This document shows, one piece after another, positions 15,432 through 47,142 of a DNA stretch of 64,000 nucleotides (its first letter is position 1; each line of letters opens with the position of its first letter). The notes under the pieces were generated by a model, which was not told the origin of the DNA, did no database searches, and saw only the letters and a list, made by a program, of their open reading frames with translations. This stretch comes from Opitutales bacterium (lineage in GTDB: Bacteria > Verrucomicrobiota > Verrucomicrobiia > Opitutales > UBA953). The stretch is from contig JANRFG010000032.1 of the NCBI GenBank assembly GCA_030725715.1, forward strand, positions 62,001-126,000. The letters are read 5' to 3'. Position numbers and translations under genes: made by a program.

Positions 15432-16478
15432 CTATTTTGAGACCTCGGTCGCGGCGCCGGCTTGGCTGGGGTTGGCGCCGAGACTGAAGTCCGCGGGCTG
15501 GCCCTTGCGTTGACGCGAGAGCCACAGCACGCCGGCCGAGGATTCGGATTCGTGGCCACCTTCGAAGACCGTCACGCGGGCATTGCCGGACGAGCGACGG
15601 AAGAGCACGGCCTTCTGGCGTTCGGGGTCGGCTTGGGTCTCGGCAGCAAGTTTGGCGGGGACCTTCCGCTCCCGGACCATGGAGTCGATGTCACCGACAG
15701 GGATCTGCTTGTCCTGCGCAGCCAGGACATTGAAGGCGTGGAGCGAGTGGCTGACGGGCACGGAGCCGGTGTGGCCGTCGTGGATGCCGGTATTGATGTC
15801 GAGCGGCACGCCTTTGGCGGCGGCGAGGTGGAAGAGGGGGGAGCGGTAACGGTACTCGGCTTCGGTGGCGGGGCCGGGCGGGCCGCCACAGGACTGCTCG
15901 AGCATCTTGGCGTAGTTGTTCTTGCGGGTCTTGCTCTCGGCGTGCCACGCCGCGAGGTCGGAGATCGGCACCCAGGCGCTCACGCCGGCCCAAAGGTCGG
16001 GCGCTCGGGCGGCCATGACGAGGGACATATGGCCGCCGCCGGAGCCGCCGATGAGGTAGATGCGGGAAGCATCGATACGTGCGTCGCGACGGGCGTAGGC
16101 GACGGCGTCGAGGATGTCCTGCGAGGCCAGGTCCGAGGCGCAGGCTTCAGGCCGGCTGTTCGGGCCGCGGAAATCGGGAGCGACGAGCACCCAGCCCATC
16201 TTCTTGGCCTGGGCGATCCACGGCGGGCCCTGCTCGAAGCCGCCGCTCCAAGAGTGCAGGAAGACGATGAGCGGCACCGCGGGGCCGGAGGCGTCATGTG
16301 CCGCGGACTCCGGTCGCCAATAGATGACTTTCTGCAGGGTGCCATCCTTCGTGCTCGGGATATCGATGGCCAGCTTCATCGCGGCGGCACGGGTCTCCGC
16401 GGCGGACGGACGTTTCGCCGCGACCTTGGGTTCGGCGGCGAAGGCGACGACGGAGAGGAGGAGCGCGAGGAGTCTCAC
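15432..16478 (-). CDS. Secreted alpha/beta hydrolase (prolyl-oligopeptidase / dienelactone hydrolase-like)
   Basis: PLIVFLHSWSGGFEQ, YLIGGSGGGHMSLV nucleophile elbow. Confidence 0.8.
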   Translation of the reverse strand: MRLLALLLSVVAFAAEPKVAAKRPSAAETRAAAMKLAIDIPSTKDGTLQKVIYWRPESAAHDASGPAVPLIVFLHSWSGGFEQGPPWIAQAKKMGWVLVAPDFRGPNSRPEACASDLASQDILDAVAYARRDARIDASRIYLIGGSGGGHMSLVMAARAPDLWAGVSAWVPISDLAAWHAESKTRKNNYAKMLEQSCGGPPGPATEAEYRYRSPLFHLAAAKGVPLDINTGIHDGHTGSVPVSHSLHAFNVLAAQDKQIPVGDIDSMVRERKVPAKLAAETQADPERQKAVLFRRSSGNARVTVFEGGHESESSAGVLWLSRQRKGQPADFSLGANPSQAGAATEVSK

Positions 16479-17470
16479 TTCAGTTCGGGGCGCAGGGCGG
16501 CCTTGACGTAAGCGATGTCGGTCGCGTGGACGACGTTCGGGGCGCCGGGGTAGACGAATTCGCAGCGGACGCCGTTGGCGTCGCAGTGTTCCTTGAGCTT
16601 CACCCCGAAGTTGGCCGTGTGGGTCGGGTCCTTCTCGTCTTTGCCGAGATTCGGGGCCGCGGAGTAGAAGAGCCCGACGGGTGGATCGTCGCGGCTGACG
16701 AGTTCATAAGGCGAGTACTGCTTGATCCAGGGCAGGATGCGTTCGCGCTCGGCGTAGAACATGTCGAAGGAAGAGACCTTCTTTTTGGCATCCCAGCTGA
16801 TGCCGAAGGCGTGGGCGCCGTATTTGCTGTTGGGCGTCCAGGCGCGCATCTGATGCGGGTCGAGGGTCGTCTGGGCGCCGCTGACCGCGGCGCAGGTCAC
16901 GCGGGTGGATTCGCGGGCGATGGGGTCGGTGCTCTGCGGGTCGGCGAGGTCGTCATGGAAGGCCAGCCAGAGGCTCGTGCAGGCGCCGGCGGAACCGCCG
17001 GCCAGGGCGACCTTGGTCTTGTCGAGATTCCATTCCTTCGCCTTGCTGCGGGTGAACTGCAGGGCGCGCGCGCAGTCGAACATCGGGCCTTTGACCGGCG
17101 GGACGAGCCCGTCGGCGGTGGAGTCCTTGATGGTGCGGTATTCTACGGAGACCACGGAGATGCCGGCTTCGAGGGCTGGCTTGATCATGCTGCGGACCAC
17201 GGAGCGGTCCCCGCCGGACCAGCCGCCGCCGTGGATGTAAAAGAGCAGGGGCGTGGGCTGGTCGGACTTCGCGCGCCAGAAGTAGATCCGCTGCATGCGG
17301 TGCGGACCATAGGCGACGTTCTCGTCCGGCTCGACCGGCAAGGGATATTTACGGAACTCAGGGTCGCCGGCTTTTGGCGCCGCCGGCGTCTTGGTCGCCG
17401 GGTCGGCGGCGAAGAGCGATGCCGCGCCCAAGGTCAGGGCGACGACGGAAGCGAGCAGGGGTGTGCGCAT
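16475..17470 (-). CDS. Secreted alpha/beta hydrolase (esterase/lipase, BD-FAE-like)
   Basis: Start at 17470 gives MRTPLLASVVALTLGAASLFAADPA; LLFYIHGGGWSGGDRSV, VALAGGSAGACTS. ATGA overlap with the next gene. Confidence 0.85.
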   Translation of the reverse strand: MRTPLLASVVALTLGAASLFAADPATKTPAAPKAGDPEFRKYPLPVEPDENVAYGPHRMQRIYFWRAKSDQPTPLLFYIHGGGWSGGDRSVVRSMIKPALEAGISVVSVEYRTIKDSTADGLVPPVKGPMFDCARALQFTRSKAKEWNLDKTKVALAGGSAGACTSLWLAFHDDLADPQSTDPIARESTRVTCAAVSGAQTTLDPHQMRAWTPNSKYGAHAFGISWDAKKKVSSFDMFYAERERILPWIKQYSPYELVSRDDPPVGLFYSAAPNLGKDEKDPTHTANFGVKLKEHCDANGVRCEFVYPGAPNVVHATDIAYVKAALRPELK

Positions 17471-17478
17471 GAAGGTAA

Positions 17479-17635
17479 GATGGACGATGAAGGATGAAAG
17501 ATGAAGGATGAAACGGAGGCAGGACACCTGATGGACGATGTAAGATGGGTAATCGTCGTCTCAAGGGCCGGAAGAAAGGGCGCGGTTTATGGCCACTTAT
17601 CTTCCATCGCCCATCCTCCATCTTTCATCTTACTT
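17479..17635. repeat. Inverted GATGNNN heptamer arrays
   Basis: Left 17479-17513: GATGGAC GATGAAG GATGAAA GATGAAG GATGAAA, plus 17530-17550. Right 17601-17635: CTTCCAT CGCCCAT CCTCCAT CTTTCAT CTTACTT. Confidence 0.85.
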
Positions 17636-18064
17636 AGCCGCCGGCGGGATCTTGCAGGACTGCCAGGCGAGGAACTTCCATTCGCCCTTTTCGAGCCGCC
17701 AGACTGCCAGATATCCGATGGTGCTCTCCGCGGCGTTGCCCTTCACGACGGCCTTTACGTCGAAGCGGCCGGTCATCAGCGCAAGTCCCGGGGCCGGGAA
17801 CGTGAAGCTGCGGTCCTGGTAGGCGTATTTCGAATAGGTGGCGGAGCCGTCCGTCAGCGAGGCGATGAGCGCGTCCTTCGAGTCGACCTGGCCGTTGGAG
17901 TGCGCGTAGCGCAGCTCGGGCGACAGCACGGCGGCGAGCTTTTCGCGGGTCGGAGCCAGCATGGCCGCGACGCGGGCGTCGTCCGCGGCGGACACGCGGG
18001 CGAGCTCGGGATGTTCGGCGGCCGAGCAAGTGAGCGTGAAGAGGAAGGCGAGGAGGAGGCGCAT
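17630..18064 (-). CDS. Secreted NTF2-like / DUF4440 (SnoaL-like) protein
   Basis: MRLLLAFLFTLTCSAAEHPELARVSAADDARVAAMLAPTREKLAAVLSPELRYAHSNGQVDSKDALIASLTDG...; NTF2-like pattern. Confidence 0.75.
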   Translation of the reverse strand: MRLLLAFLFTLTCSAAEHPELARVSAADDARVAAMLAPTREKLAAVLSPELRYAHSNGQVDSKDALIASLTDGSATYSKYAYQDRSFTFPAPGLALMTGRFDVKAVVKGNAAESTIGYLAVWRLEKGEWKFLAWQSCKIPPAAK

Positions 18065-18071
18065 GGGAAGA

Positions 18072-18212
18072 GATGTGAGATGGAAGATGAACGATGGACG
18101 ATGGAGAGTCGAAGATTACGGAGGGCGGATGATGGATGAATGATGTTGGCGGCTGATATGGCCTGTTGGTCATCAAGCATCATCCATCATCCATCATTCA
18201 TCGTTCATCCGT
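18072..18212. repeat. Inverted GATGNNN / CATCNNN heptamer arrays (11 left units, 6 right units)
   Basis: Left 18072-18148 in strict 7-nt register: GATGTGA GATGGAA GATGAAC GATGGAC GATGGAG AGTCGAA GATTACG GAGGGCG GATGATG GATGAAT GATGTTG. Right 18171-18212: CATCAAG CATCATC CATCATC CATCATT CATCGTT CATCCGT. Confidence 0.9.
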
Positions 18213-19245
18213 TTCTCACCGCAGTGACAATGCTCCGATCGCACGCCGTGTCTTGGTGGCGGATGTCGCCGAAGCCGGCTTCGGTCAGGAGTTCGCGCAT
18301 CTCGCCGGTGCCGTAGCAACGCCCTTCGGTGACGCTCATCAGCAGGGCGGAGTAGGCCGCCACGGGCGCCGGGCCGGTCTTGTCGTCGTTGAGGTGGGCG
18401 TCGTGCACGATCAGCAGGCCGCCCTTGGGCAAGGCCTTGGCCGAGGCGGCGAGCAGGAAACGGACTTTGTCGGTATCCCAGTCGTGCAGCACGTTGGAGA
18501 ACAGGTGGACGTCATAGCCGGCCGGCAGGGCCTCGGTGAACATGTCGCCGGCCGTGACGTCGACCCGATCCTGGAAGCCGCGCTTGGCGATCATCTTGCG
18601 CGTGATGCCGTCGACCGGCGCCCGTTCGAAGACCGTGGCGGAGAGCTTAGGGTGATTGGCGACGAGCGCGCAGGCGTAGATGCCCGAACCGCCGGCGATA
18701 TCGAGCAGACGCGTGCGGGCTCCGATGGGGGAGGCCTTGGCCATCGCGGGTCCGAGGGTGAAGCCACGGGAATCCATCGCCGCGGTGAAGCTGGTGGCGA
18801 AAGCGTCGGTGAGCATCGCTTCGCTCCACGGCTTCTCGTCCTTGTAGCTGCCCCAATTGGCGGGCTTATCGGTCTTCAGGATGACGATGAAGTCTTTCAC
18901 GACCGGACGGTCCTTCAACGAGGCGTAGTAGGGGCCGAGGAAAGTGGCGGACGTGCTGACGAGGTGCTCCTGGCCAAGCGGGGTGACGGAGTAGGCTCCG
19001 TTCTTCAGCGCGAGGAAGCCGTTGGCCGCGAAGAGCGTCAGCATCACGTCGGTGGGCCGGCGGTGCGTGCCGAGGTCGCGGCAGACCGTGTCGAGGTCGG
19101 ACGGCTTGGTGGCGAGCTTGGTGAAGAGATCGAACTCCGTGATCGCGGCGGCGATCAGGTCGACGGCGTAAAGCCCGTCACGGAAGCGGTAGATTTCCAG
19201 CGGGTCGTGCGCGGGCGCACGGGTGAGGTCAAGCGGGGCGGACAT
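18205..19245 (-). CDS. SAM-dependent O-methyltransferase (class I, small-molecule type)
   Basis: Start at 19245; LLDIAGGSGIYACALV SAM motif, VHLFSNVLHDWDTDKVRFLLAASAKALPKGGLLIVHDAHL. Confidence 0.88.
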   Translation of the reverse strand: MSAPLDLTRAPAHDPLEIYRFRDGLYAVDLIAAAITEFDLFTKLATKPSDLDTVCRDLGTHRRPTDVMLTLFAANGFLALKNGAYSVTPLGQEHLVSTSATFLGPYYASLKDRPVVKDFIVILKTDKPANWGSYKDEKPWSEAMLTDAFATSFTAAMDSRGFTLGPAMAKASPIGARTRLLDIAGGSGIYACALVANHPKLSATVFERAPVDGITRKMIAKRGFQDRVDVTAGDMFTEALPAGYDVHLFSNVLHDWDTDKVRFLLAASAKALPKGGLLIVHDAHLNDDKTGPAPVAAYSALLMSVTEGRCYGTGEMRELLTEAGFGDIRHQDTACDRSIVTAVRNG

Positions 19246-19301
19246 GAGCAAGGGCTGCACGATGACAGCCCTTGCGGAGAAAACCACCCGTTTTCTTCGG
19301 C

Positions 19302-20738
19302 TTACTTGGCCTTTTTCTTTTTGCCGGGCTTCTTCTTGGGGCCTTCGTTCGCTTCACCAGGCTTGTCTGCGAAATCAGGGATCTTGAAGTCGATGGCCTT
19401 GGCCTGCTTGGCGTATTCCGCTTCCAGCTGCTTGCGCAGGTCGGCGTAGGCGGGGTCGGCGGCGAGGTTCTTCAGCTCATAGGGGTCGGCCTTGAGGTCG
19501 AAGACCTCGGTCCACTCGTCATGCCCCGGATACTTGATCAGTTTGGCGTCGGAGGTACGGACGGCGGTCGTGAGGGGCGCGTTGAAACCCTTCTCATGGA
19601 AGTAGCAGTAGAAGAAGCTCTCGCGCCAGTCGGCGGACTTCTCTTCCAGGAGGGGCTTCCAGCTGCGTCCGTGCATGGCGGCGGGCACCGGCTGTCCGGC
19701 GAGGTCGAGGAAGGTCGCGGCGGGGTCGATGTTGAGGACCATGCGATCATCGGTCCGTCCGGCCTTCACGGCGCGAGGGTAACGGACCAGCATCGGGATG
19801 CGGAGGGATTCTTCGTAGGCCGTCCGCTTGTCGCCGAGGTTATGTTCCCCGAGGTAGTAGCCGTTGTCGCTCGAGAAGACGAAGACCGTATCCTCGGTCA
19901 GTCCGAGTTCGTCCAGCGTCCGGAGCAATTTGCCGACGTTGTCATCGACCGCGTTGATGCCGCGGAACATGCCCAGTTTGGTCGGGACTTCCTTGGCGTC
20001 GGTCCGCTTGCCCCTCGCGCCGTTCGGGCCGACGGGCGCGTAGATCGCAGGCACGCCGAAGTTAGGCACATTGCGGGCCAGCGCGCCTTCGTAGGCCTTT
20101 TCGTGGCGGGGCGGCGGCGTGAACGGACCGTGGCAGGTCTTCAGGCCGAGGATCATCAGGAAGGGCTTGTCCTTGTTCGCCTTGATGAAGTTCGCCGCAT
20201 ACTCCGTGGTCACATCGTCGACGAAGCCTTGGCTCGGGGTCTTGACGCCGTCGACCTCGATGGGGCAGTCGAAGTAGATGCCTTGGCCGACGAAGCTGGC
20301 GGAAGTGTCGAAGCCCGGACGCTTGCCGGACTGGCTGCCATGGTGCCATTTGCCGAAGTAGCCTGAGACATAGCCGGCGGGACGGAGCAGGGCGGCGACG
20401 GAGAGGTTGCCTTCGGGGTGGGGCGTGTGGTTGTTGGTCACGCCGTTGACGTGGCCGTATTGGCCGGTGACGAGCGAGGCGCGCGACGGTGCGCAAAGCG
20501 AATTCACGACGAAGGCGTTGCGGAAACGGAGCCCCTCATTGGCGAGGCGGTCGAGGTGCGGCGTCTTGAGCCAGGGGAAGCGCCCTTTCTCTCCCTGTTC
20601 CTGCTGGACGACCCCGAGCGCGTCCCAGCGCTGGTCGTCGGTGTAGACGTAGACGAAGTTCGGCTTGCGATCGGCGGCGGCGAGCGACGCGAAGGCCAGG
20701 CAGAGCAGGGCGAGCAGGGGGATGCGCGGGGTAGGCAT
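19302..20738 (-). CDS. Secreted type I sulfatase
   Basis: KPNFVYVYTDDQRWDALG; CAPSRASLVTGQ; FSSDNGYYLGEH; C-terminus KKKPGKKKKAK. Confidence 0.95.
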   Translation of the reverse strand: MPTPRIPLLALLCLAFASLAAADRKPNFVYVYTDDQRWDALGVVQQEQGEKGRFPWLKTPHLDRLANEGLRFRNAFVVNSLCAPSRASLVTGQYGHVNGVTNNHTPHPEGNLSVAALLRPAGYVSGYFGKWHHGSQSGKRPGFDTSASFVGQGIYFDCPIEVDGVKTPSQGFVDDVTTEYAANFIKANKDKPFLMILGLKTCHGPFTPPPRHEKAYEGALARNVPNFGVPAIYAPVGPNGARGKRTDAKEVPTKLGMFRGINAVDDNVGKLLRTLDELGLTEDTVFVFSSDNGYYLGEHNLGDKRTAYEESLRIPMLVRYPRAVKAGRTDDRMVLNIDPAATFLDLAGQPVPAAMHGRSWKPLLEEKSADWRESFFYCYFHEKGFNAPLTTAVRTSDAKLIKYPGHDEWTEVFDLKADPYELKNLAADPAYADLRKQLEAEYAKQAKAIDFKIPDFADKPGEANEGPKKKPGKKKKAK

Positions 20739-23521: not shown

Positions 23522-23549
23522 CATCCTCCATCTTCCATCGTCTATCCTT
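23522..23549. repeat. CATCNNN heptamer array
   Basis: CATCCTC CATCTTC CATCGTC TATCCTT between minus-strand genes. Confidence 0.7.
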
Positions 23550-35443: not shown

Positions 35444-35478
35444 GATGAACGATGAAGGATGAACGATGGAGGATGAAA
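35444..35478. repeat. GATGAAC heptamer array (left bracket of four-helix-bundle gene)
   Basis: GATGAAC GATGAAG GATGAAC GATGGAG GATGAAA. Confidence 0.9.
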
Positions 35479-35485
35479 CAGTGGC

Positions 35486-35941
35486 TCAGGATCTGTGGTG
35501 TAGTTCTACGCCGTGCATGAAGGTGCGTAGCTTGGCGATAAGTAGGCGAGTGTGATCCGCGAGTTCTGCGTGTCGTTGCTGTGAGACTAGGGACCCGGTC
35601 TCGCGAAGGGTGTCCAGATGATCCAGGGTTTCTTGGGCCGAGCCCAGCGCGTAGGTGAGATGGCGGAGGAACTCCATTTTGTAGCGGCGCTTACCGTATC
35701 CTTCGACGATGTTGGCGCGAATGGACTTGGAGGAGCGTCTGACTTGAGAGCCGACTTCATGCATCTCAAATCGCGGAAGCTCTTCCAGGGTCATCCGATG
35801 CACCTCCACGGAGAGATCGCGAGCCAGCTGCCATACCTCCAATCGCTGATAGCCGGATGCGGTTTCCTGGGGCTCCTCCATTACTGCTCCCATATCATTC
35901 ATCATCCATCCCTCATCGTTCATCGTGTTTCTCATCTGCAT
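35486..35941 (-). CDS. Four-helix-bundle protein (S23 / 23S rRNA intervening-sequence-protein family, avd-like)
   Basis: YQRLEVWQLARDLSVEVHRMT...EVGSQVRRSSKSIRANIVEGYGKRRYKMEFLRHLTYALGSAQETLDHLDTLRETG. The first ~20 aa are encoded by the flanking heptamer array, so the true start may be internal. Confidence 0.88.
   Translation of the reverse strand: MQMRNTMNDEGWMMNDMGAVMEEPQETASGYQRLEVWQLARDLSVEVHRMTLEELPRFEMHEVGSQVRRSSKSIRANIVEGYGKRRYKMEFLRHLTYALGSAQETLDHLDTLRETGSLVSQQRHAELADHTRLLIAKLRTFMHGVELHHRS
35894..35928. repeat. ATCNNNN heptamer array (right bracket, inverted)
   Basis: ATCATTC ATCATCC ATCCCTC ATCGTTC ATCGTGT. Confidence 0.85.
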
Positions 35942-47057: not shown

Positions 47058-47068
47058 GATTATGAAAT

Positions 47069-47142
47069 AGGGGTAGGGGTGGGGGTAGGGGTGGGATTAT
47101 TACATCTGGCCAACCGTTCAACGGATCAACCGGTCAACTCCG
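47069..47142. repeat. Mixed array: AGGGGT hexamers followed by CAACCGTT octamers
   Basis: 47069-47098: AGGGGT AGGGGT GGGGGT AGGGGT GGGATT. 47111-47142: CAACCGTT CAACGGAT CAACCGGT CAACTCCG. Confidence 0.85.

Follow-up and report, generated by a model that had tools for sequence, protein, structure and literature searches.

Hairpins of inverted heptanucleotide arrays between genes of an Opitutales bacterium and their resemblance to elements that carry four-helix-bundle genes

A 64,000-nt stretch of an Opitutales bacterium genome (GCA_030725715.1, contig JANRFG010000032.1, positions 62,001 to 126,000; hereafter the window, with positions numbered from its first letter) contains two hairpins without a gene, each built from a seven-letter word that is repeated forwards and then as its inverted complement. 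What are such structures, and how do they relate to the cassette near 35.5 kb in the same window, in which similar arrays surround a four-helix-bundle (4HB) gene of the TIGR02436/PF05635 or "S23" family, known from insertions in ribosomal RNA genes? The original prediction was that the two hairpins could be non-autonomous, MITE-like derivatives of that cassette, or that the arrays may grow and move independently. The observation itself was confirmed, whereas the interpretation placed on it was only partly supported.

Structure of the two hairpins

The coordinates of the hairpins and neighboring features are collected in Table 1. All genes flanking the two hairpins are on the minus strand and the upstream stop codons lie in the arrays; as had been claimed, the TAA of the NTF2-like gene (17630-17632) and the TGA of the methyltransferase gene (18205-18207) fall inside or across repeat units. 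In hairpin 1, the 18-nt arm pair 17493-17510/17612-17629 is 94% complementary. The unbroken 7-nt register of eleven left units claimed for hairpin 2 is real, although three of the steps (18107 AGTCGAA, 18114 GATTACG, and 18121 GAGGGCG) are degenerate. The ends of both hairpins form a long complementary stem, and as RNA they are predicted to fold at -58.8 and -48.4 kcal/mol (z = -4.46 and -4.65, respectively), with no shuffled sequence as stable.

Table 1. Features of the window discussed in the text.
Coordinates	Strand	Feature	Details
7990-8105		Gene-less hairpin, GCGGTTN/AACCGCN	Same word as the 4HB cassette at position 156082 of contig C18 of this genome
16475-17470	-	Esterase-like gene	Start codon 8 nt from the left arm of hairpin 1
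17479-17632		Hairpin 1, gene-less	Left array (GATGNNN)5 at 17479-17513; inner block (GATGNNN)3 at 17530-17550; right array (CATCNNN)4 at 17605-17632
17630-18064	-	Small NTF2-like gene	Name from the original prediction; no NCBIfam hit; orthologs in 35 of 55 genus genomes
18072-18212		Hairpin 2, gene-less	Left array of 11 heptamer steps at 18072-18148 (8 exact GATG); right array (CATCNNN)6 at 18171-18212
18205-19287	-	Methyltransferase gene	TGA stop straddles the last right-arm unit of hairpin 2
23522-23545		Lone CATC x3 array	No exact GATG partner; possibly a decayed hairpin
33862-34000		Gene-less hairpin of 6-nt units, AGGGGT/ACCCCT	Word that flanks 4HB genes in relatives; near sulfatase/DUF1501-type genes
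35444-35927		4HB cassette	Left array (GATGNNN)5 at 35444-35478; right array of CATC units to about 35927
35486-35941	-	Four-helix-bundle gene	TIGR02436, 84.9 bits; the ORF as called starts within the array
47068-47095		6-nt array, GGGGTA	Near sulfatase/DUF1501-type genes

The arrays are not a product of chance. A motif-free scan of 349 kb, comprising the window and loci selected by protein, found 55 tandem segments of period 7, 20 of period 6, 7 of period 8, and none of periods 5, 9, 10, or 11 (the multiples 12 and 14 follow 6 and 7), whereas shuffled sequence gave none. The GATG hairpin pattern occurred in 10 of 55 genomes of the genus, its reversed control in none, and among named genomes the pattern returned at least 117 stretches from Acidobacteriota, Planctomycetota, Bacteroidota, Chloroflexota, Gemmatimonadota, and others. 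Attention to GATG alone proved too narrow, since the window also holds gene-less hairpins of other words (Table 1); the word GCGGTT forms gene-less hairpins in 19 of the 55 genus genomes, all with at least one 4HB gene. No promoter and no intrinsic terminator (a G+C-rich stem followed by a T run) was found, the latter at none of the positions from 17400 to 18300, and an Rfam search of 16000-20000 returned no family.

Orthologous junctions and the association with four-helix-bundle genes

Orthologs of the NTF2-like gene allowed the same junctions to be read in relatives. Hairpin 1 is present in four genomes (that of the window and the genus genomes G059, G033, and G061) and absent in nine, where a short conserved leader stands instead. 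On the NTF2 tree this distribution requires three changes, at least two of them on well supported branches. Hairpin 1 shows no target-site duplication and replaces about 45 nt of leader rather than inserting cleanly. G061 shares the hairpin at 94%, and over window positions 17420-17670 the hairpin and its immediate flanks are 90-100% identical, while identity drops to about 50-80% on either side, indicating a recombination tract. Hairpin 2 keeps its place but uses GATGAAN-type units in four genomes and GATGACA/CATCTGT units in five. At the PSD1|DUF1501 junction of the 35.5-kb cassette, 15 orthologs show a GATG cassette with a 4HB gene (three genomes), gene-less GATG hairpins (three), GTTCTTN/NAAGAAC hairpins (four), GAGTATN-type arrays (three), or little. 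Words switch on both arms at two junctions. There are no fixed terminal repeats, and arms change length and even word at one site; the second option of the original prediction therefore also holds, in that arrays grow and turn over on their own. Conservation of the arrays at fixed positions across species with compensatory changes, as expected of ordinary terminators or RNA elements, had been named in advance as what would refute the original prediction, and this condition was half fulfilled: arrays at the hairpin-2 and PSD1|DUF1501 junctions recur at fixed positions, but the word turns over and no terminator tail is present. Within the hairpin-2 site, an arm's own partner scored no better than partners of the same word, only better than those of another word (p 0.02), so that pairing is conserved at word level and not base by base.

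When GATG alone was considered, 4HB genes appeared not to be flanked by arrays; this first conclusion was overturned by an unbiased scan, which revealed other words. Of 111 PF05635 loci in the genus, 107 have inverted flanking arms above the shuffled 99th percentile, against 1.9% of 1500 random positions. Their units are 6, 7, 8, 11, or 12 nt, mostly 7 nt, in about 18 words. At four 4HB loci, one of them at C18:152024-152339 of this genome, the gene is broken by a frameshift or in-frame stops, consistent with gene decay inside the hairpin. Word class follows the 4HB tree perfectly (17 changes, the minimum, versus 75.6 when shuffled), which at first suggested partner specificity; however, nearly all members of a class share one genomic site, so this congruence is mostly vertical inheritance and is not used here as proof. 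Stop codons in all three frames could not account for the period, being found in only 14 of 107 5' arms.

The association extends beyond the genus. In a phylum-wide set not chosen for hairpins, 22 of 30 4HB loci have arms above 12.5 versus 1 of 89 control positions, with period 7 in 15 of 16 clearly periodic arms. Of 25 GATG-hairpin genomes from other phyla, 20 have PF05635 genes, although this is not a contrast with background, as 184 of 243 genomes of the phylum also have the family. Most of the 29 testable loci from these phyla have inverted arrays, mainly of period 7 and several with GATG arms. Among the open-licence papers searched, none was found to describe inverted heptamer arrays as the general setting of 4HB genes.

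Polarity, position, and insertion on plasmids

GATG lies 5' of CATC in 29 non-redundant pairs and in 141 pairs from pattern-selected loci, with none in reverse; the 141 were obtained with a pattern of that polarity, and the 29 are the fairer count. The 5' arm is G-rich (G>C) in 103 of 105 genus loci and 36 of 39 others. Gene-less hairpins across phyla lie between convergent (32) or co-directional (32) genes and hardly ever between divergent genes (2), against a background of 146/394/90 adjacent ORF pairs, at a median distance of about 10 nt from their neighbors; 37 hairpins that fell inside called ORFs, probably spurious ones, were set aside.

On complete plasmids, sought with a family-like composite protein rather than a natural sequence as query, 12 of 12 examined 4HB genes are flanked by inverted arrays. 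In Nostoc sp. ATCC 53789, the same three-gene block carries a 4HB cassette in different junctions on pNsp_a and pNsp_c, with different words, and the pNsp_a cassette sits between copies of TTCTA at the stop codon. Comparison of Trichormus variabilis plasmid C with two 98%-identical empty alleles shows a 420-nt insertion between copies of GTAAT, again at the stop codon; at that site Nostoc C052 pC052_E holds a remnant comprising the left array and the first part of the 4HB gene. At a TraM-gene junction, C052 and N. edaphicum have the full cassette with GGGAACA words, C057 is empty, and ATCC 53789 pNsp_c has a gene-less hairpin of GGGAACT-type words with no 4HB similarity. These 4HB cassettes behave as insertions, but only two of those compared with empty alleles show clean direct repeats, the others being imprecise, and the 5-nt repeats could be microhomology. 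Other cassettes on cyanobacterial plasmids lie between nrdB and nrdA, between cas6 and cas4, and between cmr2 and cmr3. On a plasmid of Pseudanabaena sp. ABRG5-3, the cassette-free allele carries an AATTACG heptamer array at the same junction, another word switch.

Interpretation and comparison with known systems

We favor, with moderate confidence, the view that the two hairpins are gene-less members of a broad class of inverted tandem-array hairpin elements whose gene-bearing form carries a TIGR02436/S23 gene in the loop; they would be elements resembling the intervening sequences (IVS) of 23S rRNA that sit outside rRNA, mostly right after stop codons and rarely between divergent genes. In this view, the G-rich 5' array pairs in the transcript with the C-rich 3' array to form a long dsRNA stem, and because each arm is a tandem array, gain or loss of units on either side keeps the stem paired. 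RNase III may cut this stem, as shown for the Coxiella 23S IVS, so that insertion between co-transcribed genes would be tolerated. Elements would arrive rarely, as insertions or by recombination of the junction between species, and then turn over in place through 7-nt slippage, word replacement, and loss of the gene. The architecture, the association with 4HB genes, polarity, presence/absence, word switching, and cassette insertion on plasmids were demonstrated by the analysis, whereas RNase III processing, a selfish or near-neutral status, and any role of the 4HB protein in movement are inferred from sequence and by analogy. A bolder reading is possible but doubtful, namely that TIGR02436/S23 genes define a distinct, phylum-spanning class of mobile element, a hairpin of inverted heptamer arrays with the gene in the loop, inserted at stop codons with about 5-nt target duplication, whose protein acts on the G-rich array and also mobilizes or maintains gene-less hairpins in trans; the 23S rRNA IVS would then be one special case of it.

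Among the alternatives, in-place growth alone, in which 7-nt replication slippage and copying between the arms (quasi-palindrome correction) make hairpins de novo at intergenic sites and the 4HB gene merely tolerates or exploits them, survives best but remains unlikely. Heptamers are the most abundant long simple repeats in most prokaryotic genomes, for which a polymerase-footprint explanation was proposed (Mrazek 2007, cited in PMC4679880); loops are locus-specific, words switch at fixed junctions, and heptamers also occur in a cassette-free allele. In-place growth does not explain why nearly all 4HB genes, in many phyla, lie inside such hairpins, nor the cassettes inserted at different junctions of one gene block, nor the strict polarity of the G-rich 5' arm.

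A strict MITE model, in which internal-deletion derivatives of the 4HB cassette are moved in trans as DNA by the 4HB protein acting on the heptamer arms, is less likely still. The MITE idea in its broader form is partly supported, as hairpins with and without a 4HB gene are built the same way, presence is polymorphic at one junction, and one plasmid site occurs as full cassette, gene-less hairpin of a nearly identical word, and empty site. In favor of the strict model, truncated and gene-less alleles exist at cassette sites on plasmids. Gene-less GATG or GCGGTT hairpins occur in 24 of 44 genus genomes with a 4HB gene and 1 of 11 without (Fisher p 0.008; genomes of at least 1.5 Mb, 24/41 versus 0/5, p 0.019), and no array hairpin was found in the sampled stretches (791 kb) of three 4HB-free genomes. 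However, genome size and phylogeny confound this association, and neither a word-specific association with carriers of class-D 4HB genes (p 0.14) nor that of GATG alone (p 0.67) is significant. There are no fixed terminal repeats, and arm words, arm lengths, and loops are not shared between copies. Derivation of the loops of the window's hairpins from the 35.5-kb cassette was not supported: the hairpin-1 loop occurs only at its own orthologous site, with no dispersed copies of the hairpin found, and neither hairpin carries a 4HB remnant above shuffled scores. The 4HB family matches no transposase, its only PDB relative being 2gsc. Regulatory hairpins at mRNA ends, whether terminators or 3'-end stabilizers acting in both directions because the design reads the same on both strands, are the least likely alternative, since despite strong folds and the preference for convergent and co-directional junctions close to genes there is neither a T-tract nor an Rfam family, hairpin 1 is missing from nine orthologous junctions, and purifying selection against promoter disruption explains the position equally well.

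The closest known systems are the 23S rRNA IVS with an S23p/IVP ORF (Coxiella, Leptospira). The Coxiella IVS has an S23p ORF that is degenerating, a 28-bp terminal stem, excision by RNase III, and, next to the ORF, tandem GACAGAT heptamers whose copy number varies between strains (PMC4990558); GACAGAT is a rotation of GATGACA, the type-B word at the hairpin-2 site. Shorter ORF-less IVSs also exist. The present hairpins lie between protein-coding genes and not in a 23S rRNA helix, and their whole arms are tandem arrays of many different words; a 4HB ORF in the loop is found in the 35.5-kb cassette, and about 96% of 4HB loci of the genus have flanking arms. The function of S23/IVP proteins has been open since the IVS was described, and it was concluded for Coxiella that the protein may not even be made there (PMC4990558). 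A consistent DNA context, an inverted minisatellite hairpin of fixed polarity in many phyla together with gene-less copies and recent clean insertions on named plasmids, turns this into testable questions of whether the protein binds its array, whether RNase III cuts the stem, and whether the element moves. PF05635 also resembles the Avd four-helix-bundle protein of diversity-generating retroelements (PMC10053308). REP/REPIN elements and MITEs are likewise short, polymorphic intergenic palindromes without a gene that possibly depend on a partner gene elsewhere, but the GATGNNN arrays have no GTAG/CGTC tag (PMC3733652) and no fixed terminal sequence, their arms are minisatellites, and the candidate partner is a 4HB protein rather than a transposase.

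Heptamer stems are also found in the P6b helix of the Nostoc/Calothrix trnL intron, where degenerate units with complementary partners belong to two word classes that replace each other at a fixed site and length changes by 7-nt units (PMC4476775). The present hairpins share degenerate 7-nt units on both arms and interchangeable words, but are intergenic, whereas P6b lies inside a group I intron and carries no gene; Nostoc plasmids also carry 4HB cassettes of this design. The intergenic TAACTGA heptamers of Beggiatoaceae, Cyanobacteria, and Bacteroidetes are tandem repeats of one word (PMC4679880), but are direct repeats, nearly all without an inverted partner and without a 4HB gene. Arrays may also be composite, as at two loci that mix 7-nt GATGACA and 12-nt GAGGACTGAGTT or GATGGTAGAATC words.
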